From: a virus
DNA length: 44,300 nucleotides
Direction: 5' to 3' (one strand)
IMG/VR virus record: IMGVR_UViG_3300021478_000058
Location: 1 to 44,300 of that record
Part shown: piece after piece, positions 13,130 to 44,300 of the stretch
How the letters are laid out: the number at the start of each line of letters is the position of its first letter
How positions within the stretch are numbered: position 1 is the stretch's first letter
Program-made: the position numbers and the translations under genes
The notes under the pieces: model-generated
The model's input: the letters and a program-made list of their open reading frames with translations, nothing else
Database searches by the model: none
Told to the model about the DNA's origin: nothing

Positions 13130-14919
13130 AGCATGTAATCAACCCACAATTAGCTTTAGACATTGTGCGGTGCCATTACAAGCCGATTGCGTTCGACACT
13201 GAGACTACCGGAATTACTGTTCAAGACAAAGTTTGCGGCTACGTCATCACCAACGACGAGTATTCAACATACACACCAGTCCGCCATGAAGGCGGGGGCA
13301 ACATCCCAAATGTAGAGGAGTTCGAACATGAGCTTCATAGAGCATTTGGAGATCGTAGCAGGATGCTTTTTCTTACTGTGGGCCATAACTTCGGCTTTGA
13401 TCTGCGCATATGTCTTCGCCATGGAATCACTTTGGCGGGACCGCTAGAAGACACGATGATCAATGAGGCGATCATTAGTGATATTGTTCAGGGGCACGGA
13501 TTGGCCGAGTGTTGCTTACGGCACCGCGTAACAGCTAAGAAAGGAGATGAAATCTATGCCGAATTGGCCAGGAGGTTCGGTGGATTACCCGACAAGAAAC
13601 AAATGGGCAAATTCTGGAAGCTGGAGGGGGACCATCCTCTCGTCGTCGATTACGCCACAGGCGACGGCGTTTCAACCTTGGAGTTATGGGCGAAACAGCA
13701 ACGAATACTTGACGCAGACGGGCTACGAAAATCGTGGCAACTTGAGTGCGATCTATTACCATACGTCGCAAAAATCCACCATCGAGGACTAAAAATTGAC
13801 CCCGAATACGCGGGGCAAGTAGGAACAGAGGTAGAAAATGCCATTAAAGAAAAAAGCAAAGTCTTTATCCCCGGCTTCAACGTCCGATCGCCAAAAGCCG
13901 TCGAAGCCCTCTACCGAACCAACGGATACACCGATGAACGATTCGCCCGTACCGATAGCGGGGCTTTATCCTTCACCGAAAAATGGCTTGAAACAAACGA
14001 CATCGGCGGAGCCATCCTCGCAGTTAGACGGCTCGAAAAGGCACGGGATTCCTTTATTGCACCCCTTATTGATACCCACAATGTCAACGGACGAGTTCAC
14101 CCGGTCCTCAACCAGTCCAAATCAGACGACTACGGAGTTGCCGGTGTCAGATTTTCCTGCTCCGAACCAAACCTACAAGCTTTCCCCAAGAGAAATATTG
14201 ATGTTGGCAGAGTTGTTAGAAGGCTGGTCGTCCCGGACGAAGGATTCGTCTTTGAAGAAGCAGATGCGAAACAGCAAGAACCAAGACTATTCACTCATTA
14301 TTCGGGTGACCCGGCATTGGTTGATGGATACCGTAGCGGAACTATGGATATCCACGACAGAGCCTCCCAAGTCTTTGGGTTAGAGCGCGACGTAGCCAAG
14401 CGAATGGCGATGGGGATGTTGACTATGATGTCCCCACCGACGCTTGCAGGCCATATGCGATGGCCTATAGAGCAAGCGCGCGAGGCTCATCGCCGCTTTC
14501 TCACCGATGCGTTCCCAGCAATCAAAACATTCCAGGACACCGCAATCCATGTATTCCGGAGGCGAGGATATGTCAAAACCTTACTTGGCAGACGCGCTTA
14601 TTTGGATGACCCCCGATTCGCCTATCGTGCAGTATCAAGAATCATCCAGAATGTCGGCGGCGAGCACCTCAAAATGTGCCTTCTCCGAGCTTGCAAGTAC
14701 GAAGACGCCTACCCTAATGATGTTCAGATCCTGCTTACGATTCATGATAGCTTACTCTGGCAGCGAAATCCAAGTCACTCCCCCACCGATTTAATTAGAT
14801 GTATTGAACACGTCGCAGAGGAACTCGAATTATCAGTTCCCATTCCATTTGGCTTAGGCAGCGGCAAAGATTGGGCAAGGGCTTCTTATGGCGATAAACT
14901 CGATAAGTATGACGAGTAG
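13126..14919 (+). CDS. Family A DNA polymerase with divergent motifs
   Basis: A 597-residue PolA-type polymerase. The N-terminal ~200 residues are a DEDD 3'-5' exonuclease (AFDTETTG near residue 24, GHNFGFDL later). In the polymerase domain, motif A is DAKQQEPR (Asp380), motif B is RDVAKRMAMGMLTMM (Arg421, Lys425), and motif C is IHDS (Asp541). Compared with E. coli Pol I the motif A Ser is Lys, the O-helix Phe and Tyr positions are Met and Thr, and the Glu of His-Asp-Glu is Ser. The 5' nuclease domain is absent, as usual in phages. Next to purZ it is a candidate 2-aminoadenine-using DpoZ (inference). Confidence 0.88.
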   Translation: MKHVINPQLALDIVRCHYKPIAFDTETTGITVQDKVCGYVITNDEYSTYTPVRHEGGGNIPNVEEFEHELHRAFGDRSRMLFLTVGHNFGFDLRICLRHGITLAGPLEDTMINEAIISDIVQGHGLAECCLRHRVTAKKGDEIYAELARRFGGLPDKKQMGKFWKLEGDHPLVVDYATGDGVSTLELWAKQQRILDADGLRKSWQLECDLLPYVAKIHHRGLKIDPEYAGQVGTEVENAIKEKSKVFIPGFNVRSPKAVEALYRTNGYTDERFARTDSGALSFTEKWLETNDIGGAILAVRRLEKARDSFIAPLIDTHNVNGRVHPVLNQSKSDDYGVAGVRFSCSEPNLQAFPKRNIDVGRVVRRLVVPDEGFVFEEADAKQQEPRLFTHYSGDPALVDGYRSGTMDIHDRASQVFGLERDVAKRMAMGMLTMMSPPTLAGHMRWPIEQAREAHRRFLTDAFPAIKTFQDTAIHVFRRRGYVKTLLGRRAYLDDPRFAYRAVSRIIQNVGGEHLKMCLLRACKYEDAYPNDVQILLTIHDSLLWQRNPSHSPTDLIRCIEHVAEELELSVPIPFGLGSGKDWARASYGDKLDKYDE

Positions 14920-15799: not shown

Positions 15800-16158
15800 A
15801 CCCAAATATCAAGCCGGACGAACTGAACATCGCCGAAAGCATCCTGCTCGACGCGGCCAATGCGATTCGAGACCGTAGCAAGGAACACGGTCACACCGAG
15901 CGATCATTTATGATGATCGCCGAAATGTGGACGACCTATATTGGCCATGTCTACACGATACGAGGCGAGACTAGGTTGCGTCCCCACGATGTGGCATTCA
16001 TGATGGATATGCTAAAGACTGCGCGGTCTGTGTATGGCTTCTCGACGGACAACTTTGTGGATAAAGCTGGGTTCTCGGCGCTGGCTGCGATGCTAACACC
16101 AAATCCCGGCCCAGCCCACAAGAAGATCGAAAAGGAACCAAAGAATGGACCTATTTAA
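15796..16158 (+). CDS. DUF6378-like phage protein
   Basis: A 120-residue helical protein. The pattern ILLDAANAIRDRSKEHGHTE, then IAEMWTTYIG, then LRPHDVAFMMDMLKTAR, then DNFVDKAGFSALAAM matches the phage domain I know as DUF6378. No biochemical role is established to my knowledge. It starts inside the nuclease stop and overlaps purZ by 14 bases, so it is made together with the nucleotide-metabolism genes. Confidence 0.75.
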   Translation: MNPNIKPDELNIAESILLDAANAIRDRSKEHGHTERSFMMIAEMWTTYIGHVYTIRGETRLRPHDVAFMMDMLKTARSVYGFSTDNFVDKAGFSALAAMLTPNPGPAHKKIEKEPKNGPI

Positions 16159-17194
16159 GTACCGGGGAATCCACTGCGTAGTTGACGGTCAATACGGCTC
16201 AACGGGAAAGGGGGCGTTGAGCGCGTATTTGGCTGAGCAATCGATCAAACATGAGCGCCATTTCGAGGGAGCAATCTACAGTGGTGGCCCAAATAGTGGG
16301 CATACATTCTTCCACAACGGTGATCGCCACGTAGTGAAGCAGTTGCCAGCATCCGCTGTTTATTTGGCGTTACGCGGAAAAGTATCGACGGCTTATTTAT
16401 CAGCGGGCGCGGTTATTGACCGCGACGTGCTCAAAGAGGAAGCCAATAGGTACCCTAATCTCCATATATTCGTGCACCCCAATGCCGCTATCGTGACGGA
16501 CGAGGACAAAAAGGCCGAAGAGTATGGTTCTATAGCGGAAGTGGCCGGAACTCGTAGCGGAACTGGCGAGGCGCTGGTCCGGAAGGTGCGGCGCGAGTTC
16601 AGCGCTATTGCCAACAACTCGCTGGGAATGCTAGCCACCAACGTAGTAATCCAAAATCACAGGTTAAAACCTGAGCGAAACGCGTATTTCATGGAAGTAT
16701 CACAGGGGTTCAGCCTTGGCATCAACTCACAGTTCTATCCAAAAGTTACTAGCCGCGAGTGCACGGTTATGCAAGGTCTTGCCGACGCACGAATTGCTCC
16801 TCGGCATTTGGCTCGCATTTATATGGCTATACGCACCTTTCCCATTAGGGTTGGTAATGTCGATGGCCATTCTAGTGGTAATTGGTATTCGGATCAGCAT
16901 GAAACTACTTGGGAAAAAATAGGGGTAGAACCAGAACTGACCACGGTAACCAAACGAGTGCGGCGCGTTGCAACATTCTCGATGGATCAATTCTACGACG
17001 CCTGTTACGCCAATGATCCAGACGTGGTGTTCATTAGCCACATGGATTACTTAAACAGGGAGCGCCAACTTGCATTGTTGGATGATATCAATCAAGCACG
17101 GGGCAGCATGAATAAACACTTTTCCCTGATGGCCAGTTACGGCCCAACAGTAAACGACGTGCGCAAGGAGGACGAATTATATGAGCAACGATAA
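16145..17194 (+). CDS. purZ: PurZ, adenylosuccinate synthetase-like enzyme for 2-aminoadenine
   Basis: A 349-residue relative of PurA, about 80 residues shorter than bacterial PurA. The catalytic loop reads GQYGSTGKG, so the Asp of GDEGKG in PurA is Ser19, with Lys22 kept. This substitution marks PurZ. Other family blocks are present: GGPNSGHT (His53), VAGTRSGTG, MEVSQGFSLGI, and a C-terminal TTVTKRVRRVA. PurZ joins aspartate to dGMP, giving the precursor of 2,6-diaminopurine deoxynucleotide, which host enzymes finish. It overlaps DUF6378 upstream and the MazG-like gene downstream. An ordinary salvage PurA is unlikely because of the Ser. A PurZ0-type variant is an alternative. Confidence 0.9.
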   Translation: MDLFKYRGIHCVVDGQYGSTGKGALSAYLAEQSIKHERHFEGAIYSGGPNSGHTFFHNGDRHVVKQLPASAVYLALRGKVSTAYLSAGAVIDRDVLKEEANRYPNLHIFVHPNAAIVTDEDKKAEEYGSIAEVAGTRSGTGEALVRKVRREFSAIANNSLGMLATNVVIQNHRLKPERNAYFMEVSQGFSLGINSQFYPKVTSRECTVMQGLADARIAPRHLARIYMAIRTFPIRVGNVDGHSSGNWYSDQHETTWEKIGVEPELTTVTKRVRRVATFSMDQFYDACYANDPDVVFISHMDYLNRERQLALLDDINQARGSMNKHFSLMASYGPTVNDVRKEDELYEQR

Positions 17195-18997: not shown

Positions 18998-19092
18998 CAA
19001 TCTCCAAGCCAGCCGACCACAAGCAGCGTTATCCCTGCGGAGGCGACCGCTCCGAATACCAAGCCGTACAGAAAGGCCGCCCCAATGCTCAT
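18994..19092 (-). CDS. 32-residue single-span membrane protein
   Basis: A reading frame of 32 codons that is almost entirely one hydrophobic helix (AAFLYGLVFGAVASAGITLL, then VVGWLGDC). Its ATG overlaps the TGA of the upstream polysaccharide-lyase-like gene, which supports translation by coupling. It is the last gene of the late operon, two genes away from the endolysin, so a lysis role is possible, but nothing in the sequence proves a holin. Confidence 0.55.
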   Translation of the reverse strand: MSIGAAFLYGLVFGAVASAGITLLVVGWLGDC

Positions 19093-19823
19093 CCAAAGTG
19101 TAGGTTGCTGTACTTCACCGCCATTACTTCTGGGGCTTCGTTGCGATAGATGCCGTTCTTCCAATAATACTGCTCGCCGGTACCGAAGCCGATCTCGCCT
19201 TTAAAATCGACGATTTGGATATCGTCGCGCCACACCCGGCAGTAGCCGTTGTGGTCGAATTTCACTTCGGTGCGGAGCTTATACTTGTGGCCGCGCTGGA
19301 TATTCTTGGTGTCGGCGAATATTCGATTTTCCTTGTTAGTGCTGTCGCGGATTAGCACGTGGAAGCGCTCGCCGTACATCGCAAATGCGAACGGCGGATT
19401 GCCCCCGGAATTGGTTTGATGCCACTGCCCAAGTATCATCCAATCGGCGGTGTTAGGACCACCCGGCTCCATCAAGAAGCCATGTTCTTCGATGATATCG
19501 GTGCCTGCGGGGCGACGACCATCCCAAATCTCAATCTCGGAGCGCTCGGAAGTGGTTGGATCGGTGTGATTGGGCGATGTCCAACGGTCGCCGGAGTGCA
19601 CTTCGAAATGTAAAGTGTATGGGTCGGGATTTGCGATCGAATATGACTTGGATGGGTCATGTTCAACCTCAGCGTTGACACCATCGATTTGGATCATCGA
19701 GCCGTTCTGAGCATTGAATTTGGTGATCTTGCCCGCAGTATTGACCGGATCGGGCGGAACTGGCGCGTCGTCGTAGGTAATGGTGCCGGTAACTGTGGCA
19801 TTGGTCACGTTGATGGTCGGCAT
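19089..19823 (-). CDS. Polysaccharide-lyase-like protein, copy 1
   Basis: A 244-residue protein. A short N-terminal arm of about 30 residues, with a Pro-rich linker, precedes a jelly-roll domain resembling the polysaccharide lyase family (PF14099-like): FEVHSGDRWTSP, TTSERSEIE, GQWHQT, PFAFAMYGERFHVLI, RGHKYKLRTEVKF, and W.D.IQIVDFKGEIG. It is likely a depolymerase acting on capsule or exopolysaccharide. A paralogue lies at 20746-21498 with the same block order. The catalytic residues cannot be assigned from sequence alone. Confidence 0.75.
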   Translation of the reverse strand: MPTINVTNATVTGTITYDDAPVPPDPVNTAGKITKFNAQNGSMIQIDGVNAEVEHDPSKSYSIANPDPYTLHFEVHSGDRWTSPNHTDPTTSERSEIEIWDGRRPAGTDIIEEHGFLMEPGGPNTADWMILGQWHQTNSGGNPPFAFAMYGERFHVLIRDSTNKENRIFADTKNIQRGHKYKLRTEVKFDHNGYCRVWRDDIQIVDFKGEIGFGTGEQYYWKNGIYRNEAPEVMAVKYSNLHFG

Positions 19824-19826
19824 GGT

Positions 19827-20540
19827 TTACTCCTGTTCGTTGACCCGTACGGTCACTTTGACATTGGGCGGCGCAGTAACTTCGATTAGAACCTCGCTGG
19901 TAGTTGGTTCAGGAGGAACTGGCTCCGGGGTTGAAGAACCGATCCATTCTAATAGCTGCTCGTCGGAGCCGTTGAATTTGTTTAAATCGACGGTTGACCC
20001 ATCGATACCATCCATTTGTCCGCTCTCTGAATACTGCCAGAGCGTCCAGGAAGGATACGTCCCTTCTGACCACGACGGTTCACCTGAGGTATATTGTGCC
20101 AGCCACAAATCGGTGTATTGGGCAAGCATCTCGTCGTACTCGCCGTTTAATTGCTCCTTGAGCAGATGTCCAGAATATACGGTAATTCTCAGATCGCGCG
20201 GATCGGCCAATAGTGCATCTATTGCCTCGTGCAGATCGTTAATGGTGCAACCGTTTTCCTCGTAATCGATTACTACCCGTTCACCGGGTTGCGGATCAAC
20301 CGTCTGCAAAAAGAAAGCCATCTGATCGGCGGCATTACCCGGATTAAGCCAATGATAAGTGCAGACCGCAATTCCGGCCTTGATTGCATTGGCGCAGTTC
20401 TTGGCGCGGTTTGGGTCCTCGTAAGTGGTGCCCTCGGTTGCCTTGTGGATCATAGCAATGACCCCCTCCGCCTTCACCTTTGCGAAATCGGGGAATCCTT
20501 GCCAGTGCGAAATGTCGATACACTTTACTGTTTCGCTCAT
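19827..20540 (-). CDS. GH25 lysozyme (endolysin)
   Basis: A 237-residue muramidase of glycoside hydrolase family 25. It begins with IDISHWQG (Asp9), then MIHKATEG, then VVIDYEENG with the acidic pair expected for the active site, then LWQYSESG. It cleaves the glycan strands of peptidoglycan for cell lysis. The last ~40 residues are a Pro-rich linker and a short beta segment (LIEVTAPPNVKVTVRV). No signal peptide or membrane anchor is visible, so it needs a holin. It overlaps the small gene upstream by four bases. Confidence 0.9.
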   Translation of the reverse strand: MSETVKCIDISHWQGFPDFAKVKAEGVIAMIHKATEGTTYEDPNRAKNCANAIKAGIAVCTYHWLNPGNAADQMAFFLQTVDPQPGERVVIDYEENGCTINDLHEAIDALLADPRDLRITVYSGHLLKEQLNGEYDEMLAQYTDLWLAQYTSGEPSWSEGTYPSWTLWQYSESGQMDGIDGSTVDLNKFNGSDEQLLEWIGSSTPEPVPPEPTTSEVLIEVTAPPNVKVTVRVNEQE

Positions 20541-34556: not shown

Positions 34557-35552
34557 TTAGAGAACGGTACCCTGCTTGATACCGTTAAACAGGATGTGCG
34601 CAATGGGATTGCGCATTTCGACACCCCACTCCACCACGATCATCCGAGTCTTTGCGTCGCCAACCACGGCAAGCAGAGTGTGGTTGAAGTTCCGGAAGAA
34701 CGCAGTAGCGAGGAAGTCCGCGTCGAGCAACAGTCCAACGTCGGACGGCAGCCAAAGCGACGGCATCACCATAACCCGACCGAAGTCGGTGGCAATCACA
34801 TCAACCGTGGATACCACTTCGGTGCTTCCGACCTGCACCATCGTAGCGCTGCGGCCTTTGAAGGTGGAAACGGTACGCCGAATGGCGGGCGGAAGAATCA
34901 GCTTGTCTGGATGCGCACCATTGGTATATGCCCTCTGCATCGCATCGTTGACCATGGTTTCGGTCAACGCCACCTGCGACGCACCCGCAACTGCGGCGAA
35001 AGCATCGGTGGACAGCACCGGAACACCGGTAACAACAGTACCCGGCGCAATAGCGCCGTTCACCGCACCGGTTCGATCCTTGGCGCGCGCAATCCAATGG
35101 CTGATGGCTTCGGTTTTGCGCGGAGTACCCGGATCGGCACCGTCGTTTCGCTCTTGTCGACCCGACATGATGGTTTCCATATCGGATTTGAGAACCTTCG
35201 ACGCTATTGCCATCTGGTGGCCCATTTCGGAGCCCTTACCAGCGGCATCGGCGGCTTCTTGCGATCCGGAAACCGTCGCGTCACGCTTGGAAATCTGCGT
35301 AACGTTGGTCAAACGGACCGTCGGCGTTCCGACTGATGCAACCAGCTGGAAACCTTCGATCTGGGCGTTATTCGGATCGACGTTGGGGAGGTTCTCGGTC
35401 TGCCAATCGAAGCTCCGATTCTTCGCGTTGCGCCTACGGCTCAGCGACATAACCGGGGTGTCGAATGGGTCGATGTTGTAGATGGAATTGGACAGGTCTT
35501 CCCTGTTGGCTTTCGCCTGATAGGTGGTAAACGCACCCGCAACTTGGGGCAT
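34557..35552 (-). CDS. Major capsid protein (SU10-like)
   Basis: A 331-residue protein preceded by AAGGAG. The N-terminal AFTTYQAKANREDLSNSIYN, the SFDWQTENLPNVDPNNAQIEG block, the SGSQEAADAAGKGSEMGHQM region and the C-terminal LLLDADFLATAFFRNFNHTL are of the SU10-type (DUF5309-like) HK97-fold capsid family. The scaffold gene directly upstream supports this. A hairpin follows. Confidence 0.85.
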   Translation of the reverse strand: MPQVAGAFTTYQAKANREDLSNSIYNIDPFDTPVMSLSRRRNAKNRSFDWQTENLPNVDPNNAQIEGFQLVASVGTPTVRLTNVTQISKRDATVSGSQEAADAAGKGSEMGHQMAIASKVLKSDMETIMSGRQERNDGADPGTPRKTEAISHWIARAKDRTGAVNGAIAPGTVVTGVPVLSTDAFAAVAGASQVALTETMVNDAMQRAYTNGAHPDKLILPPAIRRTVSTFKGRSATMVQVGSTEVVSTVDVIATDFGRVMVMPSLWLPSDVGLLLDADFLATAFFRNFNHTLLAVVGDAKTRMIVVEWGVEMRNPIAHILFNGIKQGTVL

Positions 35553-35555
35553 GAG

Positions 35556-36692
35556 CTAACTCCTTGCTATGATCTGATCAAACACCATGGCGGCATCTTC
35601 GATACTGCCTGTTTTGTTGAGTCTCTTCATAGCCGAGGTAACTCCCTTCTGGACCGTGCGCTGCTTAGCGCTTCCCGTCCCCGGAGGAATCGGCTTAGCT
35701 GCAACCTTTGGAACCGGTTGCGGCCTGCTTGTCACCATTCGGTCGTACTTACTCGCCTTCAATAGTACTTTGAGCATGCGAGAATCGTAGACCTGTGACA
35801 ACTCTTCTTCGGTGAAACCCGCTGATAGTCCAGTCCTGCGCATCGATTGCAGGTCCTTGACTTTCTTCTTGGGATCACTCCATGTTTTGCGATTATCCGC
35901 CTCGAATTTGGCGGACTCTTCTTCGGCGAATGCAGCCAATTGATTGGCGTTCATTTGCGCCTGCTTTTTGGTATTCTCCTCCATCTGCTGTTGGAGTTGA
36001 GTTCTGAATTGATTGGCCTTCTCGTAGTAACGCTGAAGTTCCCGCGCTTTCGCCGGGTCCTTCTGGAATTCCTCGTCCCAATTCGGTTCCTTGGGGATCA
36101 TCGTATCCATGTGCGCTTGCATCTGCTTCGCAACGTTCATGGAATAGTCGTAATTCTGTATGGCATCCGCAGCGGCGCGACGAACGATCTTCTTCGCCTC
36201 GTCCAATTGGTTCATTCTGCGGTGAAAAGTCTCGGTGCGAACGTAGCCCTCAAGAGCTTCTTTAAGCGTTACTTCGACCGGCTCGCCGTCGACGGTTACT
36301 TCTACCTTCCGCTTAAGCTCGTTGGACTCAGCATCGGTTTCTTTTTCTTCTTCATCTTCGGCGTCGTCATCCCCGTCAGGGGATTCGTCATCGTCGTCCC
36401 CATCAGATTCGTCATCATCTGGTCCCTCTGCTTCGTCATCGCCTTTGCGAGGATCCCTTGCGGGAGGCTTGGGCTCTTTCCTTTTGCCATATAACAATTC
36501 CTCCGGATCAGAGTTGTCGCCACCGCCTTCGGCAGGGCTGTCTTCGTCCACTTCCAGCCTGCCGATGTTCTCAAACATCTTGACCGGCGGACCTTCCTCC
36601 ATCGGAACTGATCTATGTTCCGCCTTAGGACTCGCAGCAGGGCTAATTGACGCGTCGAAGGCCAATGCTGCGTCTTTCATACCCTCTGGCAT
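35556..36692 (-). CDS. Scaffolding protein
   Basis: A 378-residue protein immediately before the capsid gene. It has a very acidic Asp/Glu stretch at residues ~85-115 and then long Gln/Glu/Lys-rich helices (FRTQLQQQMEENTKKQAQMN), ending with a basic C-terminus that would bind capsid subunits. This is typical for podovirus scaffolds that guide procapsid assembly and leave on maturation. It starts inside the TAA of the gene upstream. Confidence 0.8.
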   Translation of the reverse strand: MPEGMKDAALAFDASISPAASPKAEHRSVPMEEGPPVKMFENIGRLEVDEDSPAEGGGDNSDPEELLYGKRKEPKPPARDPRKGDDEAEGPDDDESDGDDDDESPDGDDDAEDEEEKETDAESNELKRKVEVTVDGEPVEVTLKEALEGYVRTETFHRRMNQLDEAKKIVRRAAADAIQNYDYSMNVAKQMQAHMDTMIPKEPNWDEEFQKDPAKARELQRYYEKANQFRTQLQQQMEENTKKQAQMNANQLAAFAEEESAKFEADNRKTWSDPKKKVKDLQSMRRTGLSAGFTEEELSQVYDSRMLKVLLKASKYDRMVTSRPQPVPKVAAKPIPPGTGSAKQRTVQKGVTSAMKRLNKTGSIEDAAMVFDQIIARS

Positions 36693-36982
36693 TATTTATC
36701 TCCCTTGTTGTATTTTTGCCGCATCTTGTGATCGGCGATGTACTGTTCCAACTGCGCTTTGACATCCAGCACTGCCTTCATCATAGCATGGGCATGGCTA
36801 GCTGTCAAGCTACCTACTTCCGCCCCCACTAGGGTTCCGACCGCCTTGGAATATATATCTATCAAAGCTTCGTTTAGCACGGAATCACCCAATGCCGCCT
36901 GCGCATTCAGAGCCTTCTCCTCCGTCTCAAAATTATTGAGGCGGGGCTTCTCCTCCGGGAACGGGTTGTTCGGCATTGACAT
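36692..36982 (-). CDS. Small helical protein between portal and scaffold
   Basis: A 96-residue, mainly helical protein (EEKALNAQAALGDSVLNEAL, then VLDVKAQLEQYIADHKM). Its first 17 codons overlap the last codons of the portal gene in another frame. It could assist assembly. An internal leftward promoter lies in its sequence at 36780-36808. Confidence 0.7.
   Translation of the reverse strand: MSMPNNPFPEEKPRLNNFETEEKALNAQAALGDSVLNEALIDIYSKAVGTLVGAEVGSLTASHAHAMMKAVLDVKAQLEQYIADHKMRQKYNKGDK
36780..36808 (-). promoter_or_regulatory. Internal leftward promoter before scaffold and capsid
   Basis: Reading leftward, TTGACA (36808-36803), 17 bases ending CCATGC, TATGAT (36785-36780). It matches consensus closely with an extended TGC. 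It would raise scaffold and capsid mRNA. It lies inside coding sequence, so the match could be partly chance. Confidence 0.65.
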
Positions 36983-39155
36983 TTGGCTGTCCTAGCATCT
37001 GATTAACCACAGGCGGAACTGGTAACGGAGCAGGAGGTGCTGTCTCTCCCGGTTCTGTGTTTTGTGCTTCGATGTCGTGCGCAGTGATGTCCGCGCTGTA
37101 TTGAGCATGTATCTTCGCCGCGTCGAGTATACCCTTGACCACCATCTGGTCGCGGCGGAAGTCGTCGTCAACTCTGAGCTTCCGATCCTCGAAATTGGAC
37201 TGCGAGATCGAAGTGGCCATCTTGACCCGATTCTTCTCCATCTCCGACTGCGCCAACAAGGTAGCCGCGTCCGGTTCTTTGGGCGTGGCTGCAATAGCTG
37301 CGATTTGTTGCGAATTGATTTCTCTGTAATACCGCCCGACATTTTTCACATTCGCAATGGCCAATATGTCCGTCAAGGTATTGCGGAATTCTTGCACCCC
37401 ACATAATGGATTCTCCACCCCGAATTGTTGCATAATTGCGGTCTGCGTCGCTTTCACCTCTTGGAGCACCATCAGCTTAGTAGTATCGGAACCCTTCCCA
37501 AGGGTCGGATTAACACTTACCCGCATAGTTGGGTCAAACGTGGACGGATTAACGTTGACCCATTTGCCCCTCAATTGAATGGTGCGGTTCTGATTGGGAC
37601 TGTTGACTATCTCGCGGAGCAGTCCGCGGAATAGCTGCTTCATTCCGGTCTCAGCCAGAATGCGAGCGCACAGTTCGATGCGCTCTTGCGCACCTTGAAC
37701 GATGGCATCGATCCCCGTCACATTGGTGGACTGCAACGCGCGGGGATCAACACCCTTCGACGCGTCCGAGATGCCGGTCCGGGACTGCCGAAGTTGCTCC
37801 ATCACCTGGAACATTTGGAAAACAGGCTGTCCCACGAATTGGTGTGCTATCGACATCACCGCCGAATTGGGGTCGCCCGTAGTTCTGATCGGCGCTCCGA
37901 TCTCGTCGTTCAACACATCGTCTGTATTGGTAATGGTCTGGTTGAACACCGTCCTAGGCCAAATAGATTGGGCCAGCGAGTCCAACGAGCCTCGCAGCAT
38001 GTTGGTCTTAATTGTCTGGATATCCTTTACCAGATCAGCCGGAGTATCACCAACCACAGTATGAGGTTCAGGATCAGGGCACCAGACGGCGAAATTGGCC
38101 CATTGAACAACATCGTCACGCAAGATATGATGATTATCACCGACAGTATGGATTTCGCGTAGCTCTGCGATTCCGTCGCCGTCCTTATCGATTCTAATGA
38201 AATAGCAGCCGTAGCGGATATCCCAAGCATCTGAGAGGTCTCCCTCATCTAGACCCTGATTCCTGAACAGGCGGTCGACCGAGAAGTTGCGCGGCGTCGC
38301 ATGCAGAAAGTCTTGTAACTCTTCTAATTTATACCCCTGCTTGACCAATTCAGACACGTTCACGATCTGGTCGTGGCCAATCAATGGCGCGTTCTCGACG
38401 TCCTTAGCTTTCCGCGAGATTCTAAATTCGTCCAGCGGCACCGGGAGAATACGGATCATCGGCTTTGACTTAGTGAAGCGAATCCGCAATCTCGCCATTA
38501 CTCCCGGCATTCGCGGATCGACTTGGTGATCGATGATCTGAATAGTCGGATTCTCGCTGACCAGTAGTTGGAATTGCTCAAGGGTAACGTTCATATATTC
38601 TTGCTCGGTCACCTCGTCTTCTTTATCCGACCACCACCTTACGACGCCAGTCTTGCAGCGCAGCGCATCCTTGCATAGGTCATGAACTATCAAGAACCCT
38701 GGATTGTCTTCCCACAGCACGTAATTCAAATAATCGGTACACTGCTTGGCCATATCTTCTTGGCCTTGGTAGTTCGGCGAGCAGTTCACTACATTCTCAG
38801 TAGAAGTGAAAATACGCATAAGGCTAGGAAGGATAGCCATGACAGTATCGCGAAAATCAGTAGAAACAGCGCTCGATTTTCCGTCGCCGTCCTGTTCAGG
38901 GTATTCGCCATAAAAGTACCTCAGGTTTTCATCACGCCCCGGCCCGAGGACTGATTCTTCATAGGATTGAGCATCGTCGATCATTGCACGCACAGTCGCG
39001 CCGTATACCAATTCGTCGTTACCTTCGCCGAATTCGTCCATCAGCCCGGCGTATTCTCCAATCACTCCGTTGTTGAATATCTTTTCAATCGGCGCACCGT
39101 TGATGGCTTCCGAGTTCAAGAACTGATCCAACGGACGTGGGGTAACTATATTCAT
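36933..39155 (-). CDS. Portal protein (P22-like)
   Basis: A 740-residue portal protein. The pattern includes GRDENLRYFYGE, DTVMAILPSLMRIFTSTENV, a long wing region with DHQVDPRMPGVMARLRI, the KDIQTIKTNMLRGSLDSLAQS stem-like helix, and a Gln/Pro-rich C-terminal tail. The ring of twelve copies forms the DNA entry channel and binds the terminase. It starts inside the TGA of terL, with GAGGAG seven bases upstream. Confidence 0.85.
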   Translation of the reverse strand: MNIVTPRPLDQFLNSEAINGAPIEKIFNNGVIGEYAGLMDEFGEGNDELVYGATVRAMIDDAQSYEESVLGPGRDENLRYFYGEYPEQDGDGKSSAVSTDFRDTVMAILPSLMRIFTSTENVVNCSPNYQGQEDMAKQCTDYLNYVLWEDNPGFLIVHDLCKDALRCKTGVVRWWSDKEDEVTEQEYMNVTLEQFQLLVSENPTIQIIDHQVDPRMPGVMARLRIRFTKSKPMIRILPVPLDEFRISRKAKDVENAPLIGHDQIVNVSELVKQGYKLEELQDFLHATPRNFSVDRLFRNQGLDEGDLSDAWDIRYGCYFIRIDKDGDGIAELREIHTVGDNHHILRDDVVQWANFAVWCPDPEPHTVVGDTPADLVKDIQTIKTNMLRGSLDSLAQSIWPRTVFNQTITNTDDVLNDEIGAPIRTTGDPNSAVMSIAHQFVGQPVFQMFQVMEQLRQSRTGISDASKGVDPRALQSTNVTGIDAIVQGAQERIELCARILAETGMKQLFRGLLREIVNSPNQNRTIQLRGKWVNVNPSTFDPTMRVSVNPTLGKGSDTTKLMVLQEVKATQTAIMQQFGVENPLCGVQEFRNTLTDILAIANVKNVGRYYREINSQQIAAIAATPKEPDAATLLAQSEMEKNRVKMATSISQSNFEDRKLRVDDDFRRDQMVVKGILDAAKIHAQYSADITAHDIEAQNTEPGETAPPAPLPVPPVVNQMLGQPNVNAEQPVPGGEAPPQ

Positions 39156-40480
39156 CCCAATCTCCTCGGTCCGTTGTTCATCCGTTTGAGGTTACGCCGC
39201 AACGCTCCCTCCCCGATACCAACCACATTGGTACCGCCGATCATCGGCGCTATCATATTCAGCGCAACACAACCGATGCGCATCGCGTCAGAAGCGTGAC
39301 TCGCCCAATTATGGAGGGGTTTACCCGTCCCGGTTTTGTGGTAATTCCGCAGCGCCATTATTCCAGGCTCGCAGCGCTGCTTGTCGAACCACATTAATCG
39401 AATGGCCGCACGTGTGGCGGAAATCCCATCTTCAACAGTATGGCTTGGACATACGAACAAATTCGGCAACATACCATCGAGAACTTCCTTGCGGCTGACG
39501 CCGGTACCCAATTCGCGTGCCTTAATATCGTGTGGCAGAACGTGCACGCCATATTGATATGGTTTGGATTTGATCTGTCCGACATAGAACTCAAGGCCCT
39601 TACCAGTGTTCTGCAAAAAGTCAATAACGTGCAGTTCCCGGCCGCAGCGTTGTACGAACCATATCACCATCTCGTCGTCAATGCCCAAATCCCACCATGT
39701 GAATACGAGCGCGTTGGGATCGTACGGAACACCGGTGATCTGACCGTCCATGTCAATCTGGTTCATTACTTCGCCGTAGTAAGACCCTTCGATCGGCGCG
39801 TCGAAGCTGCACATCATTTCGCGGGCGAACTCGTCCGCCGTCATGTCCTTTCGCATCTCTGCTACTTCGTCTTCGAGCAGCGCGTCTGTCTGTGTTATGG
39901 GTATGCTGTAAAGGTCCCACTTATCCGGTTCTTGTTCCGCGCGCTTCTTGAGGTCGTGGAAGTGGTCATCGCCGTTGGAAGTACCACTTATCACCGCCCA
40001 TCCTTGATAGTCAGCCAAACAAGGGCGGATAACAGAGCCAAGCATAGCAGGGTTAAGGAGAGGATACTCGTCAGCGACCACTCCGTCAAAATACAGTCCG
40101 CGCATTCTTTCATAGGCGGCACTTCCCCCATACAAATTAATTAGCGCGCCGTTCGGGAGTATAACCTGTAAGTCCCCTTCTATTACCCTTACTTTTGGTA
40201 ATACTTCGGTGTAATATTTGTAATACCCCCACACTAGGTCTTTGGCCTGTGCGAAGCTCGGTCCAATATAGGCGTAACGGGGCGGAGGGAAGGCCCGTTT
40301 GTTTTCCAGCGCCTTCCGGATCACCTGATTACACAGCGCGACCGTTTTTCCGGCTCGTCGGTGCGCCACGACGAACTTCCAACGTTTTTGTGATGCGTGT
40401 AACGGCCTGAAATGTTCGCGCGGCACATACGGAATAGTTATGCGAGGGACTTCTAATTCCGCTGCGGCGCTTTCGTTCAT
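39152..40480 (-). CDS. terL: Terminase large subunit
   Basis: A 442-residue packaging ATPase-nuclease. Walker A is AHRRAGKT (residues 39-46), Walker B is GVVADEYP, and the nuclease domain begins WWDLGIDDE with further acidic residues (HVIDF, then ASDAMR near the end). I chose the ATG at 40480, which overlaps the TGA of the Acb2-like gene. It drives DNA into the procapsid and cuts it. Confidence 0.9.
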   Translation of the reverse strand: MNESAAAELEVPRITIPYVPREHFRPLHASQKRWKFVVAHRRAGKTVALCNQVIRKALENKRAFPPPRYAYIGPSFAQAKDLVWGYYKYYTEVLPKVRVIEGDLQVILPNGALINLYGGSAAYERMRGLYFDGVVADEYPLLNPAMLGSVIRPCLADYQGWAVISGTSNGDDHFHDLKKRAEQEPDKWDLYSIPITQTDALLEDEVAEMRKDMTADEFAREMMCSFDAPIEGSYYGEVMNQIDMDGQITGVPYDPNALVFTWWDLGIDDEMVIWFVQRCGRELHVIDFLQNTGKGLEFYVGQIKSKPYQYGVHVLPHDIKARELGTGVSRKEVLDGMLPNLFVCPSHTVEDGISATRAAIRLMWFDKQRCEPGIMALRNYHKTGTGKPLHNWASHASDAMRIGCVALNMIAPMIGGTNVVGIGEGALRRNLKRMNNGPRRLG

Positions 40481-40668
40481 TTTGTAATTGCCTTGACGGC
40501 CCACATCACCGCCTCTTCTAATTTGGTCTTCGCGATCGATACTTCGCGCGACTGTTCGAGTGAGTCAAATAGCTTAAGAAAATCGGCCCCCATGCTCTTA
40601 ATAGTGTTGATGGATTCTTTCTCGGCGTCACTCAATTCGCGGTAGGTCTTACGAAATACGTCCGTCAT
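40477..40668 (-). CDS. Acb2/Tad1-like cyclic-nucleotide sponge
   Basis: A 63-residue helical protein with GGAGG before the ATG at 40668. YRELSDAEKESINTIKSMG, then a helix with SLEQSREVSIAKTKLEEAV and MWAVKAIT, matches the Acb2/Tad1 hairpin family as I remember it. Acb2 proteins assemble into hexamers and bind CBASS cyclic dinucleotides and trinucleotides, or Thoeris signals. It overlaps the Tad2 gene upstream and terL downstream by ATGA, so all three are translated together late in infection. Confidence 0.75.
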   Translation of the reverse strand: MTDVFRKTYRELSDAEKESINTIKSMGADFLKLFDSLEQSREVSIAKTKLEEAVMWAVKAITK

Positions 40669-40883
40669 TTTAATACCTCCCAATCACAGGCCAATAGATC
40701 AGTTTGGGAACATAACCACGGCACAAGGTGGTTGTCCGCCGTTTTTATGTATACATATGGAAGCGACATTTTGGAATGATCATCAGGCACCTGCAATTCC
40801 AAATACATGTCCTTGCCATTCCACCCGGCGCGCATTACTTTTTTGTGGTCGTAAAGTTCTTTTACTGCTTCTCCGATGTCCAT
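40665..40883 (-). CDS. Tad2-type anti-Thoeris protein (DUF2829)
   Basis: A 72-residue protein with AAAGGATG before the ATG. It matches DUF2829/Tad2 along its whole length: a short N-terminal helix, VMRAGWNGKDMYLELQVPDD, SKMSLPYVYIKTAD, then LVPWLCSQTDLLACDWEV. Tad2 proteins bind and hold cyclic ADP-ribose-type signals of Thoeris defence, and some also bind CBASS molecules. It is upstream of the Acb2-like gene with an ATGA overlap. Confidence 0.88.
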   Translation of the reverse strand: MDIGEAVKELYDHKKVMRAGWNGKDMYLELQVPDDHSKMSLPYVYIKTADNHLVPWLCSQTDLLACDWEVLK

Positions 40884-40956
40884 TTAGCATCCTTTACATA
40901 TACTGTTTGGGGCTGGTTCTGCTGGCGGAAGTGGATCGAACTGGCTTATGGAATGT
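40884..40956 (-). other. Short gap before the Tad2 gene
   Basis: These 73 bases carry the AAAGGATG ribosome site of the Tad2 gene and no reading frame or promoter that I can support. Confidence 0.5.
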
Positions 40957-41121
40957 TCAGTGAAACCCGGACACCTTCGCAACGCCTCCTATTAGTTCGC
41001 TCGCAATCCAAAGTGCGATTGCCATGGGTAGAAGGTACCATGCCCCGACGCTACCAATTCGCGTCGCGATGCACGCCACCACGAATGCGAATACCAAAAG
41101 GATTAGCCCTATGTTCTGCAT
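40957..41121 (-). CDS. 54-residue two-span membrane protein
   Basis: A short reading frame with two hydrophobic stretches (residues ~4-19, LILLVFAFVVACIA, and ~26-46, GAWYLLPMAIALWIASELIG). GAGGAC lies about nine bases before the ATG, and it overlaps the end of the gene upstream by 13 bases. No family recognised. A holin-like role is possible because small membrane proteins are otherwise scarce in the late arm. Confidence 0.6.
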   Translation of the reverse strand: MQNIGLILLVFAFVVACIATRIGSVGAWYLLPMAIALWIASELIGGVAKVSGFH

Positions 41122-41318
41122 GGCGCGGTGTCCTCGTCGATTGCTTCCTCTAGTATTCGTTCCAGGTGGGAAATCACTTCCTCAGTCAAGCAGCGTGCAG
41201 ATGTTCTGTGGTGGCCCGGCGGAAGATATCCTTCTGATTCGAACAGCATCCTCGCGATAGCCAAAGCATATGCCGCCTTGTAGGTATCGAACTCAGCCAA
41301 GCTTTCTGTCAGAGCCAA
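41109..41318 (-). CDS. Small helical hypothetical protein
   Basis: A 69-residue protein starting with TTG at 41318, with GGGAG seven bases upstream. It overlaps the terminase small subunit by 26 bases. Helical throughout (YKAAYALAIARMLFES, then LTEEVISHLERILEEAIDED). No family recognised. Confidence 0.65.
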   Translation of the reverse strand: MALTESLAEFDTYKAAYALAIARMLFESEGYLPPGHHRTSARCLTEEVISHLERILEEAIDEDTAPCRT

Positions 41319-41796
41319 CTAGTTCTCCCTCAATGGTTTTGAGGTCTTCCGACTGGTCTGAACCCAATTGTGTGCCATCAGCCCATTGCACCACGATAGT
41401 TCCGCCAGCGGAGTTCTTAACAGTAACGCCTCCAGAGCCTGCAGTTCCCCATCCGCGATGCTTCCCGATGTTAGTAAGTACGAATCGAGACATGGTGTCG
41501 CGCCGGGATGGGTCTTCCGCATCTGTAAGCGCACTGTATACATTTGCTTCCGCTATATCGACGAGGCGGTCTTGGGCTTCTTGCATTTCGGCGGTCAAGT
41601 AGGGCGATTTCTTAACAAAAGCGCGTAGCCGTATGGAAGTTACTTTTAATAGTTTTGCTGCTTCGGATATATTTCCAGCAGCCATCCAAATAGCGGTGCG
41701 TACCTCCTCCACGTCGAGGGGTAGTTCGACTGGTCGCTCCGAGTACGGCATCGTAGGCAGAGCGACCAGATCATTTGGCACATTTGCGTCGTTCAT
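41293..41796 (-). CDS. terS: Terminase small subunit
   Basis: A 167-residue protein. Residues ~30-60 hold a helix-turn-helix (VRTAIWMAAGNISEAAKLL, then KVTSIRLRAFVKKSPYL) of the kind used by small terminases to recognise the packaging site, followed by RDTMSRFVLTNIGKHRGWG, common in this group. It would bind DNA and feed it to TerL. It overlaps a tiny membrane-protein gene upstream by ATGA. Confidence 0.75.
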   Translation of the reverse strand: MNDANVPNDLVALPTMPYSERPVELPLDVEEVRTAIWMAAGNISEAAKLLKVTSIRLRAFVKKSPYLTAEMQEAQDRLVDIAEANVYSALTDAEDPSRRDTMSRFVLTNIGKHRGWGTAGSGGVTVKNSAGGTIVVQWADGTQLGSDQSEDLKTIEGELVGSDRKLG

Positions 41797-41888
41797 CTAA
41801 GCCAAATAGCTAGTATGGCGATGAGAATGACGGCCAATATAGCTATCCCAATTAGGTACGGTAGATCGTTGCGTTCACGCCAGTTCAT
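41793..41888 (-). CDS. 31-residue single-span membrane protein
   Basis: A short reading frame that is a charged start (MNWRERNDLPY) and one hydrophobic helix (LIGIAILAVILIAILAIW). Its stop overlaps the start of terS (ATGA). The ribosome site is weak. The layout and strong membrane pattern support it. Confidence 0.5.
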   Translation of the reverse strand: MNWRERNDLPYLIGIAILAVILIAILAIWLR

Positions 41889-41904
41889 TCATATACTCAA
41901 TAGT

Positions 41905-41969
41905 AAAGGGAGCGGGCGCTTACAGTCGCCCTGCCAGTTCAAAGCACGTCTATTCGTGCTGCTCCCTTT
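41905..41969 (-). ncRNA. Perfect three-way-junction RNA structure next to packaging genes
   Basis: AAAGGGAGC (41905-41913) pairs with GCTCCCTTT (41961-41969), GGGCG (41914-41918) with CGCCC (41927-41931), and AGCACG (41943-41948) with CGTGCT (41955-41960). All 20 pairs are perfect and two of the joints have no unpaired bases. It sits in the late transcript between the first late gene and terS. It could be a processing site, a terminator, or a packaging-related RNA. It can fold on either strand. No tRNA or hammerhead core is present. Confidence 0.6.
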
Positions 41970-41972
41970 CAA

Positions 41973-42587
41973 TTACGTACGCGCGGGCGTATTGATAACC
42001 GGCGAATTCGGCTGTACCCGCGCGGCGGCTTGTTGCCTTGGGCTGCCGTGTTCGTCCACGGGTTGTCCCGCGCTTGCGAGCGATTCCTTTATCCTCGCTT
42101 CCATACCGGGATCATTCCTCGGGTCCGGCATGGGTTGCATATTGGGCGTAATGGGCGCCCCAGAAGGGGTCACCAAATGGTCCGCTTGCTCGGGGAAGTA
42201 CCCTACAACGGGCGCTGCCACAGTTCCTACTTCGGGAGGGTCAATTGTAGCCGGTCCAGTCGGCTTCCCTTCTTCATCCAAACGAACCCATCCCTTCTCG
42301 CCATGGCCAAGCTGGCCCGACATTTCTTGGTCGCCGAATTCCTCGATCGCTTTGATTCTCTTCTTCTCGGTCTCCAATTCAAGCTCAAGCTCCTTGATCC
42401 GCGCCTCGTGAGCATGCTTGATGGCCAAATTCTGACCGTCCTTGGCGACCTGATGAGTGCTGTCAGACTTATGTGGAGGTGCCGCAGCGGGGGAAGGGGA
42501 CTTCGGCGGTGCCGCTGGAGGCTGCGTCGAAGCAGCCGCCGGGTTGTGGGGAGGCGCTTGCGGGGTGTGCGGAGGTTGGTTGGCCAT
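41973..42587 (-). CDS. Pro-rich coiled-coil protein, first late gene
   Basis: A 204-residue protein. Residues ~1-45 are Pro/Ala/His-rich, residues ~50-85 are a charged helix (IKELELELETEKKRIKAIEE) that should form a coiled coil, and the rest is Pro-rich and flexible. No family recognised. It directly follows the late promoter at 42618-42647 and precedes the terminase genes. Possibly an assembly or terminase-associated protein (inference). Confidence 0.7.
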   Translation of the reverse strand: MANQPPHTPQAPPHNPAAASTQPPAAPPKSPSPAAAPPHKSDSTHQVAKDGQNLAIKHAHEARIKELELELETEKKRIKAIEEFGDQEMSGQLGHGEKGWVRLDEEGKPTGPATIDPPEVGTVAAPVVGYFPEQADHLVTPSGAPITPNMQPMPDPRNDPGMEARIKESLASAGQPVDEHGSPRQQAAARVQPNSPVINTPART

Positions 42588-42617
42588 CGAAGGGGCTCCC
42601 TGTTATATGAATGTAAC

Positions 42618-42647
42618 AGGGTAGCACACGGGCTGGGTAGCTGTCAA
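42618..42647 (-). promoter_or_regulatory. Late leftward promoter with operator
   Basis: Reading leftward, TTGACA (42647-42642), 18 bases ending CCGTGTGC, TACCCT (42623-42618). An inverted repeat CCCTGTTA (42598-42605) with TAACAGGG (42614-42621) covers the -10 and the start point near 42611. It is the first promoter of the late arm and is probably repressed early. Confidence 0.75.
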
Positions 42648-42728
42648 GATCAGAGAAGTATATTCGGGAGGCGTTCAGAGTACGCGGATACGCATAGTGA
42701 AGAGCGTTGCACGTCGAGACGGGTCCCG

Positions 42729-42755
42729 CCTTCGAGTTGCTTTGCAACTCGAAGG
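42729..42755. repeat. Perfect 12-base-pair inverted repeat
   Basis: CCTTCGAGTTGC (42729-42740) and GCAACTCGAAGG (42744-42755) are separated by three T bases, with GTCCCG and CGGGGG flanks that extend the stem. It is not followed by a T run on either strand, so it is probably not a terminator. A cruciform, origin or protein site are options. Confidence 0.65.
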
Positions 42756-42830
42756 TCGGGGGAGTTTCGAACACAACCGCGGGTTGTGGCACGAGTCTTG
42801 CATTGCAAGGGCCGTACCAATCTTTGTCAA

Positions 42831-42907
42831 TGTGACACGGTGTCGCAGTATCGGAAGTTGTTCAGACATGCGAAACGGTTGTGTGCGATATGCGACACTG
42901 TGTCACA
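42831..42907. promoter_or_regulatory. Pair of 17-base operators
   Basis: TGTGACACGGTGTCGCA (42831-42847) and TGCGACACTGTGTCACA (42891-42907) are near-perfect palindromes and reverse complements of each other apart from one base. Their centres are 60 bases apart. The second lies about 45 bases before the predicted start of the paralogue D transcript, a position used by activators and also by repressors. Confidence 0.7.
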
Positions 42908-42983
42908 TATGCGACGCACGTTGCGACATGCTTTAATAATCTCACGGTCGCGATGGAGCGACCGGTACAACGGAGCAAGGCAC

Positions 42984-43466
42984 ATGTCGAAGCGCAAGCA
43001 CAAGGAAGTCGTGGAACCGGTCGTGGAACCGGTCGTGGTGGAACCGGTGGAACCGGTGGAACCGGTGGAACCGGAGGTCGAGATCGACGCGGAGGTCGCG
43101 GAAGAGATCGTCAAGCGAAGCTCGGTGGTCCGCCCCGCATACAAGAAGCGCTACGCGGAACGCGCCGCAGCGAACGGTGGCGGAAAGGTCGCACAGCGAA
43201 GCTGCTGGGATTGGCTGGCACAAACGCTCGCTGGCGAATGCCTCGTCGGATCGAAGATCAGCATCGACCGGTTCCTCGCCCTGCTCGACGCGAACGGCGT
43301 TGACCACAGCCGCTGGAACAACCGCAACAAGGGTTGGGAAGGCCGGCTGCGGATGACAGGAAGGCTGGCGCTGCAGAAGGTCGTCGCGGCGCAGGGCGTG
43401 CTGAAGACCGCCGATGGCGAGACGCTCGAAGCACCGGCGGAATGGGTCGCGAAGCACACCCACTAA
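42984..43466 (+). CDS. Member D of the four-copy RMTGR paralogue family
   Basis: A 160-residue protein. The N-terminal ~45 residues contain the repeat VEPV many times in an acidic Pro/Glu-rich arm. The domain follows: SVVRPAYKKRY, WDWLAQTLAG, LLDANGVDHSRWNNRNKGWE, then GRLRMTGRLALQ, and TADGETLEAP near the end. It is the closest relative of member A. It is controlled by the operator-rich region upstream and ends before a GC-rich hairpin. GGAGCAAGG lies upstream of the ATG. Confidence 0.85.
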   Translation: MSKRKHKEVVEPVVEPVVVEPVEPVEPVEPEVEIDAEVAEEIVKRSSVVRPAYKKRYAERAAANGGGKVAQRSCWDWLAQTLAGECLVGSKISIDRFLALLDANGVDHSRWNNRNKGWEGRLRMTGRLALQKVVAAQGVLKTADGETLEAPAEWVAKHTH

Positions 43467-43473
43467 GGAACAC

Positions 43474-43493
43474 GGGGCGGCGCAAGCCGCCCC
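43474..43493 (+). terminator. GC-rich hairpin after paralogue D
   Basis: GGGGCGGC (43474-43481) pairs with GCCGCCCC (43486-43493) around GCAA. No T run follows, so it may be a stability hairpin or a weak terminator between paralogue D and the next gene. Confidence 0.5.
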
Positions 43494-43522
43494 ACCACTC
43501 ATCGAAACGAGGAAATAAGCCA

Positions 43523-43702
43523 ATGACCGAAGAACAGAAGACGAAACGACTGGTGGAACTCGCAATGATCTTCTACCAGAGCGCGGAAGCACCAGACGCG
43601 AACCAGTGGGACGTTCTCTTCACACATATCGCGGAGCGGAACATCGAAGCACTAGAAAGCTACTTACGCGAGTGGGAACTCGACATCGGAGAAGACCAAT
43701 GA
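43523..43702 (+). CDS. Small acidic helical protein
   Basis: A 59-residue protein with GAGGAAA eight bases before the ATG. Helical and acidic (EEQKTKRLVELAMIFYQSAE, then EALESYLREWELDIGEDQ). No family recognised. Overlaps the next tiny gene by ATGA. Confidence 0.7.
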   Translation: MTEEQKTKRLVELAMIFYQSAEAPDANQWDVLFTHIAERNIEALESYLREWELDIGEDQ

Positions 43703-43782
43703 CTATGGAAGAAGTAGGCTTCATAAGCGCCGTATTCATAATGGCCTTCGGCGCGTTCGCGATAGCGGTGTTCTGTATATAG
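43699..43782 (+). CDS. 27-residue single-span membrane protein
   Basis: A short reading frame whose ATG overlaps the stop of the previous gene. Almost all of it is one hydrophobic helix (VGFISAVFIMAFGAFAIAVF). It is followed by a CTGCCCCA/TGGGGCAG hairpin. Function unknown. Confidence 0.5.
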   Translation: MTMEEVGFISAVFIMAFGAFAIAVFCI

Positions 43783-43787
43783 TTCCA

Positions 43788-43817
43788 CTGCCCCATCGGC
43801 GAAGGCTGGTGGGGCAG
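43788..43817 (+). terminator. Inverted repeat after the small membrane gene
   Basis: CTGCCCCA (43788-43795) pairs with TGGGGCAG (43810-43817), followed by AACTGTATTC. It is a possible weak terminator of the paralogue D unit. Confidence 0.5.
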
Positions 43818-44158
43818 AACTGTATTCGTCGTGCGGAATGCGAAACTTTTCGTGCGACTGAAACTTTTCGCGCGACGCGTGGGCAGCTGCCCAACATTCG
43901 CTGCCCACTGTTGAAACGTTTCGCGAGCCCCGAGCCAAGAAGAGACGTAACCAGAGCACGGCGTACGCGGTTCCCCGTGTTCTCAGGTTACCGCGCTACA
44001 CAGGGGGGACTCAGTACACAACTTTTTACAGCACAGGTACACAACACTGCAACACTTTATTTTCCCCCAGCTTTTTTCCCACCATGTACTATCCCCCCAC
44101 TGTGAAGAGAGGTAAGGAGGGACTACGGAGAACCGCGTACACAGAACTACTTCTTTAC

Positions 44159-44216
44159 TTGACAGACACTCCGCGCTGTGCTGTGCTGTGCTGTGCTGTG
44201 CTGTGCTATATATACT
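44159..44216 (+). promoter_or_regulatory. Sigma-70 promoter split by the CTGTG repeat
   Basis: The -35 is TTGACA at 44159-44164. TATATA starts at 44207 and is preceded by TGC, the extended -10 seen in sister promoters. With six repeat units the spacer is 42 bases and with seven it is 47. With one unit it would be exactly 17, as in most other promoters here. In the circular genome it would drive the small gene at 81-296. As written, the -35 and -10 cannot be contacted together, so the promoter should be off or depend on the extended -10 alone. Confidence 0.65.
44176..44205 (+). repeat. CTGTG pentanucleotide tandem repeat, 6 units
   Basis: Six perfect CTGTG units lie between a TTGACA at 44159-44164 and a TATATA at 44207-44212. 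Each unit changes the -35/-10 distance by five bases. Confidence 0.9.
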
Positions 44217-44245
44217 ATTCTTACTGACAACAACGGAGTCTTCTC

Positions 44246-44300
44246 ATGCCTTTCGATCTCACGCTCTCTTTCGACGATTCGATCCATATCCTCTCACAGC
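44246..44300 (+). CDS. Partial second copy of the gene at 81-296
   Basis: The first 18 codons of the gene at 81-296 are repeated exactly here and are cut by the window end. This is the product of terminal redundancy or assembly overlap, not a separate gene. Confidence 0.85.
   Translation, partial: MPFDLTLSFDDSIHILSQ

Follow-up and report, generated by a model that had tools for sequence, protein, structure and literature searches.

Among the phage proteins described so far, the closest to those studied here are Tad2 (PF11195), with gp34.65 from phage SPO1 as its type, and the Acb2 proteins Vs.4 from T4 and p26 from PaP2 (PF24729). The locus lies in a virus record of 44,300 bases (IMGVR_UViG_3300021478_000058), which was analyzed whole and is hereafter called the window, and it contains a compact member of each family. 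The window Tad2 shares with SPO1 gp34.65 the fold and the GWNG and SQTD..A.DW motifs, but its two conserved tryptophan motifs are separated by a core of 35 residues instead of the 48 of SPO1, the β2–β5 stretch being short in the window; a sequence search of the PDB retrieved only Tad2 chains longer than its 72 aa (88 to 158 residues). Likewise, the window Acb2 has the hairpin profile and the conserved tyrosine of T4 Vs.4 and PaP2 p26, as well as the IAKTKL.EA.MWA helix of Vs.4, whereas its hairpin loop is shorter and it is devoid of their kind of C-terminal tail.

Two phages offer a parallel for the combination of both genes. SPO1 is reported to possess a Thoeris sponge unable to bind 3′3′-cGAMP and a separate CBASS sponge, Acb4 (PMC11722364). 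Acb4 differs in being structurally unlike Acb2, Tad1, and Tad2, and the portions of that report consulted here do not describe an overlapping pair. In the cultured Mycobacterium phage MalagasyRose, which shows the same arrangement as the window, gene 4 codes for a compact Tad2 and gene 5, with which it shares one base, for a hairpin protein (PF24729, 79.3 bits), and the pair (positions 707–1509 of our locus L118) is directly upstream of terS and terL; its hairpin partner is, however, a 195-aa protein of another subtype, and both genes are annotated as hypothetical. This phage makes the ideas of co-production and division of labor, developed below, accessible to testing.

Genetic Organization of the Locus

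Read along the minus strand, the locus consists of a terS candidate, two small ORFs, Tad2, Acb2, TerL, portal, scaffold, and major head protein, in this order. The Tad2 ORF (40665–40883, minus strand) starts with the ATG at 40883 and stops at 40665, coding for 72 aa; the Acb2 ORF (40477–40668, minus strand) goes from the ATG at 40668 to the stop at 40477 and codes for 63 aa, or 68 aa from an alternative TTG start situated 15 bases upstream. The stop of Tad2 and the start of Acb2 overlap in an ATGA (40665–40668), and a second ATGA (40477–40480) joins the stop of Acb2 to the ATG start of TerL. The large terminase subunit (39152–40504, minus strand; PF03237, E 4.4e-11; phrog_2, E 1.8e-22) could be read from a GTG, which takes the ORF to 40504, or from the ATG at 40480, and it is with this ATG that the TerL start from Ochrobactrum phage OH aligns. 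The ORF positions and the two overlaps given in the initial annotation are therefore borne out by the sequence.

TerL is followed, also on the minus strand, by genes for an SU10-type portal protein (36933–39155; PF23899, E 7.6e-162), a head scaffolding protein (35556–36692; phrog_3927, E 8.9e-42), and the major head protein (34557–35552; phrog_1328, E 2.3e-77). At the other end, a minus-strand ORF of 167 aa (41293–41796) had no match among the family models searched, and it is probably the small terminase subunit, as indicated by its position and by its homology to gp59 from phage OH. A scan for an own promoter of the pair yielded 4 candidates, versus 3.3 in shuffled sequences, with no signal over chance.

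We propose, with a probability of about 0.72, that Tad2 and Acb2 are translationally coupled sponges of the nucleotide signals from Thoeris and CBASS, made from the packaging/head operon. The proposal is built on the homology of both proteins, the fold of Tad2, the ATGA overlaps, the insertion relative to phage OH, and the recurrence of the pair. If it is correct, both proteins would bind their ligands and share the work between them, their expression would be late, and the host would possess both defences.

The Compact Tad2 Protein

The Tad2 product matches PF11195 over the complete profile (positions 1–73 of 73; E 2.8e-24, 85.9 bits for a cut-off of 25), and among PDB chains it retrieves SPO1 Tad2 by sequence at 3.4e-12. 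Its AlphaFold2 model (pLDDT 93.4) superimposes on SPO1 Tad2 (8sme_B) with a Z of 12.4 and an rmsd of 1.9 over 72 residues; with 71–72 residues aligned, it also matches SPO1 Tad2 with gcADPR (Z 12.2), SptTad2 with cGG (Z 12.1), and ModTad2 with hisADPR (Z 11.6). The solved Tad2 types as a whole give Z values of 10.8–12.4, and the first row that is not a Tad2 falls to 5.9.

Binding of cyclic dinucleotides by Tad2 is reported to occur via an insertion between β2 and β5, separate from the gcADPR pocket (review PMC12043709). The alignment reveals that the window Tad2 is devoid of a stretch found in SPO1 between the first and the second conserved halves and, taken together with the description in the review, that compact Tad2 is missing the insertion to which dinucleotide binding has been attributed. 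Without it, direct action of compact Tad2 on CBASS becomes less likely, and the protein should be a sponge for the Thoeris signal only, bearing in mind that SPO1 Tad2, which reportedly does not bind 3′3′-cGAMP (PMC11722364), is longer than the window Tad2, and hence that length alone is not decisive. Residues R18, W21, W56, S59, D62, L64, D67, and W68 are invariant in an alignment of 32 rows that includes SPO1 and, by analogy with the β1–β2 and β4–α3 loops as described in the review, they would line the ligand pocket.

A very different activity could be proposed from the deposition of HgmTad2 under the name of AcrIIA7, a type II CRISPR-Cas inhibitor: the window protein would then be an AcrIIA7-like anti-CRISPR, with Acb2 as a CBASS sponge. 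We regard this as very improbable, because, of the Tad2 matches, AcrIIA7 is one of the remoter ones (E 4e-9 to 4e-8, versus 3e-12 for SPO1) and because the solved AcrIIA7 structures hold cADPR and cGG.

The Acb2/Tad1-Hairpin Protein

The Acb2 product covers the whole of the profile PF24729, Acb2_Tad1_hairpin (positions 1–58 of 58; E 2.1e-22, 79.5 bits for a cut-off of 27), and among solved chains the best sequence match is Acb2 homolog 43 (9ptq; 6.2e-4), with p26 (Acb2) at 0.003. In its AlphaFold2 model (pLDDT 91.0), residues 14–34 and 41–62 form a two-helix hairpin. The top structural rows are Acb2 proteins of the T4 and PaP2 types (Z 7.0 and 6.7; Foldseek E 0.023); as such fold scores are also within reach of common helical hairpins, the assignment rests on the sequence profile and not on the fold.

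Tyrosine Y9 aligns with Y8 from T4, a residue whose change is reported to disrupt dinucleotide binding (PMC12657218). The position of F82, which stacks on the ligand in T4, is occupied by T62 in the window and by alanine in PaP2 Acb2; since the latter protein likewise lacks it, F82 does not define the family. Tad1 is described with strands β1–β4 (PMC12043709), and membership of the window protein in Tad1 was ruled out, since its 63 aa form two helices only, with no N-terminal β-sheet domain before the hairpin. Carrying Acb2 has a cost, because the protein itself can reportedly set off a defence, Panoptes (PMC12657218).

Both homologies put forward in the initial annotation thus hold, that of Tad2 by a profile match over the cut-off together with the predicted structure and that of the Acb2/Tad1 hairpin by a profile match over the cut-off. 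Its suggestion of a double target, Thoeris and CBASS, is plausible and supported by the homology of both proteins, from which ligand binding is predicted. The compact Tad2 would sequester the Thoeris signal made by TIR proteins, whether this is an isomer of cyclic ADP-ribose or a related molecule like His-ADPR, and the compact Acb2-type hairpin would do so with the cyclic di- or trinucleotides of CBASS. Full membership in the two families would further entail a homotetramer for Tad2 and a hexamer for Acb2.

Insertion Between terS and terL

The terS candidate is 54% identical to gp59 from Ochrobactrum phage OH (BLASTP, E 2e-50) and the window TerL is 57% identical to its homolog from the same phage. 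In phage OH, gp59 and terL overlap and there is no sponge pair, whereas in the window terS and terL are separated by about 800 bases with four ORFs. This difference argues that the sponge pair is cargo inserted between both terminase genes, and no part of the packaging machine. From their place by the terminase and portal genes, between terS and terL, one or both proteins might nevertheless be taken for packaging or head accessories, and the first non-Tad2 row retrieved with the Tad2 model is indeed a structural component, the neck protein of phage 812 (Z 5.9, rmsd 3.3, 64 residues, 14% identity), which at a Z of only 5.9 was ruled out as a Tad2 relative. Against such a role, phage OH possesses homologous terS and terL genes and dispenses with the pair, and Tad2 relatives are also found far from the terminase, adjoining ribonucleotide reductase in XC38 and near the genome end in SPO1; we deem it the least probable of the alternatives considered here.

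Between terS and Tad2 there are two small minus-strand ORFs, with no relative for either among 50,697 phage records. The first, of 69 aa (41109–41318), matches Phage_term_smal weakly (19.6 bits for a cut-off of 29.4); the second, of 54 aa (40957–41121), is hydrophobic and its translation suggests a membrane protein, and family profiles gave nothing at a useful E. They are possibly further anti-defence cargo. A megablast of window positions 36000–44300 against phages matched nothing.

Recurrence of the Tad2–Hairpin Pair

Pairs were sought in 33 near relatives, 74 new broader Tad2 loci, and 80 long-form Tad2 loci, and were counted by ORF whenever an Acb2/Tad1-hairpin gene occurred on the same strand at no more than 450 bp from Tad2. 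The counts leave out loci fetched twice (L124–L126 and L132) and L001, which is the window itself, as well as 11 Tad2 ORFs with an unreadable length class (2, 4, and 5 in the three viral sets), none of them paired. A hairpin partner was found for 16 of 78 compact Tad2 genes (window included) and for 3/21 of intermediate length, or four if L177 (Pfam, 5.4e-14) is added, but for none of the 81 long ones, with a weak long-form partner in L031 (23.7 bits, below the cut-off) not being counted. Both the classification by length and the limit of 450 bp were chosen after the data were seen, and the records are related; the contrast between compact and long forms has a p of around 2e-5 when Tad2 is clustered at 95% or 85%, and of 0.05 at 75%.

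Partners located near compact Tad2 had served as the first seeds of the hairpin profiles, and the resulting bias was guarded against by running the Pfam profile on whole records in two of the three viral sets, the near and the long one, the broader set B excepted. This profile found a hairpin in 11/34 near records (window included); in the long set only 4/80 whole records had any match, which in none of the four was both on the Tad2 strand and at 450 bp or less from Tad2. A Pfam search with 20 partner or candidate proteins gave PF24729 for 18 of them at an E of 0.01 or better, and 16 exceeded the cut-off. In set D, with 80 loci from bacterial genomes that are independent of the viral sets, pairs occurred with 1/8 compact, 1/23 intermediate, 0/46 long, and 1/5 unclassified Tad2 genes, including those from Marinosulfonomonas (L286) and Mycolicibacterium sphagni (L290); in this small set the comparison of compact plus intermediate versus long forms goes in the same direction (p 0.16).

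The partners belong to several subtypes: a PaP2 type (L007 and L008), the types of L022 and L029, a mycobacteriophage-like type (L178, L197, and gene 5 from MalagasyRose), and the window's own compact type. Most pairs have the partner downstream of Tad2; those with it upstream are L024, L029, L130, L141, L156, and L172. This variety of subtypes, together with the existence of both gene orders, indicates that the pair was probably formed several times. Starting from Acb2, on the contrary, a general partnership with Tad2 was ruled out, as Tad2 was present in 0/80 records (the best 80 of 369 Acb2 relatives).

That compact Tad2, devoid of the insertion, is paired with hairpins while long Tad2 is unpaired suggests a division of labor, by which Tad2 takes the Thoeris signal and Acb2 those from CBASS. 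Should this be true, the length of Tad2 would predict which alarms it silences and whether it requires a second sponge as partner. Alternatively, both sponges could be broad and redundant, compact Tad2 also binding dinucleotides, and their pairing would reflect cargo gathered at one insertion site. There are phages whose Tad1 and Tad2 are reported to bind signals from both systems (PMC12043709), and the two unrelated small ORFs share the terS/terL insertion with the pair; nonetheless, the absence from compact Tad2 of the insertion reported for dinucleotide binding, the dependence of pairing on Tad2 length, and the scarcity of hairpins, none of them a close same-strand neighbor, in the complete long-set records make redundancy unlikely, and we favor the division of labor.

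Both families were already known, and their recurrent pairing appears to be unreported in the open-access literature: at the level of titles and the beginning of abstracts, we found nothing there on a Tad2–Acb2 pair or on its link to Tad2 length. As a separate observation, in L031, L033, and L034 long Tad2 domains form the end of ORFs of 214–261 aa, close to TerL and to a large gene downstream; in L031 and L034 there is also a weakly hairpin-like neighbor that does not reach the Pfam cut-off.

Proximity to the Terminase

Using a limit of 3.5 kb, picked after the data were seen, Tad2 was near TerL in 10/10 near relatives of at least 30 kb with a TerL match (1.7 expected), a count that covers 10 of the 17 nearest records of this size, the other seven being without a phrog_2 TerL match. 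Among broader Tad2 records of at least 30 kb the figure was 6/20 (3.1 expected, p 0.08), and among Acb2 records, where TerL was sought in 50 of 80, it was 4/21 (3.6 expected). Considering all loci with a TerL match, 13/13 paired versus 21/41 unpaired ones were within 3.5 kb of TerL (p 0.0009), and the same comparison gave 8/8 versus 15/33 for contigs of at least 15 kb (p 0.006) and 4/4 versus 12/26 for those of at least 30 kb (p 0.10). Since proximity is strong where there is a pair, weak in the broader Tad2 set, and lacking for Acb2 alone, placement by the terminase accompanies the pair and is no rule for either family. A general location of sponges at the terminase was thus ruled out, as it holds in the nearest relatives and not in broader Tad2 or in Acb2 alone. 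Individual phages illustrate this diversity: Klebsiella phage IME346 has the order terS-terL-Tad2, followed by a DUF1073 gene, and Sinorhizobium phage Aussie has Acb2 among head-tail genes; besides XC38 and SPO1, mentioned above, PaP2 carries Acb2 outside the structural block.

Late Placement and Defence Triggers

The initial annotation considered the late placement of anti-defence genes unexpected, an anomaly that is ruled out by the literature, because published triggers of both defences are late products. The major head protein is reported to be necessary and sufficient to start a staphylococcal Thoeris system, and is also sensed by a streptococcal one (PMC12578639). Likewise, the CBASS-activating RNA of staphylococcal phages is reported to derive from terS and terL, in certain phages from the junction of the two genes (PMC10686824), and phages without acb2 are described as gaining a capsid mutation that aids their escape from CBASS (review PMC10419184).

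Judging from gene order, the pair would be expressed late, and the sponges would be made from the packaging/head operon alongside terminase transcripts and capsid, which are the triggers known elsewhere. By analogy with those systems, a sponge produced with the capsid and terminase products would meet the signal as it appears. If so, production of sponges together with the trigger would explain the presence of some anti-defence genes among late structural genes. More tentatively, Tad2 without a dinucleotide site and an Acb2-type hairpin could constitute a two-gene operon that was put together several times by phages, is near the terminase wherever one is found, and is co-made with the triggers, and whose insertion between terS and terL may also break the CBASS-activating RNA; we hold this extended version to be possible, with clearly less confidence than the sponge pair as such.

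Other Features of the Window

Two plus-strand genes have their best NCBIfam matches, under the curated cut-offs, to PurZ (16145–17194; NF038379, E 1.9e-64) and DpoZ (13126–14919; NF038380, E 8.8e-73), and from these matches the phage may carry 2-aminoadenine instead of adenine. The minus-strand block ends with adjacent genes for a polysaccharide lyase and a protein with a GH25 lysozyme domain (19089–20540, minus strand). Among cultured records, the terminase and portal are close to those from Ochrobactrum and Sinorhizobium phages, which suggests that the host may be an alphaproteobacterium.
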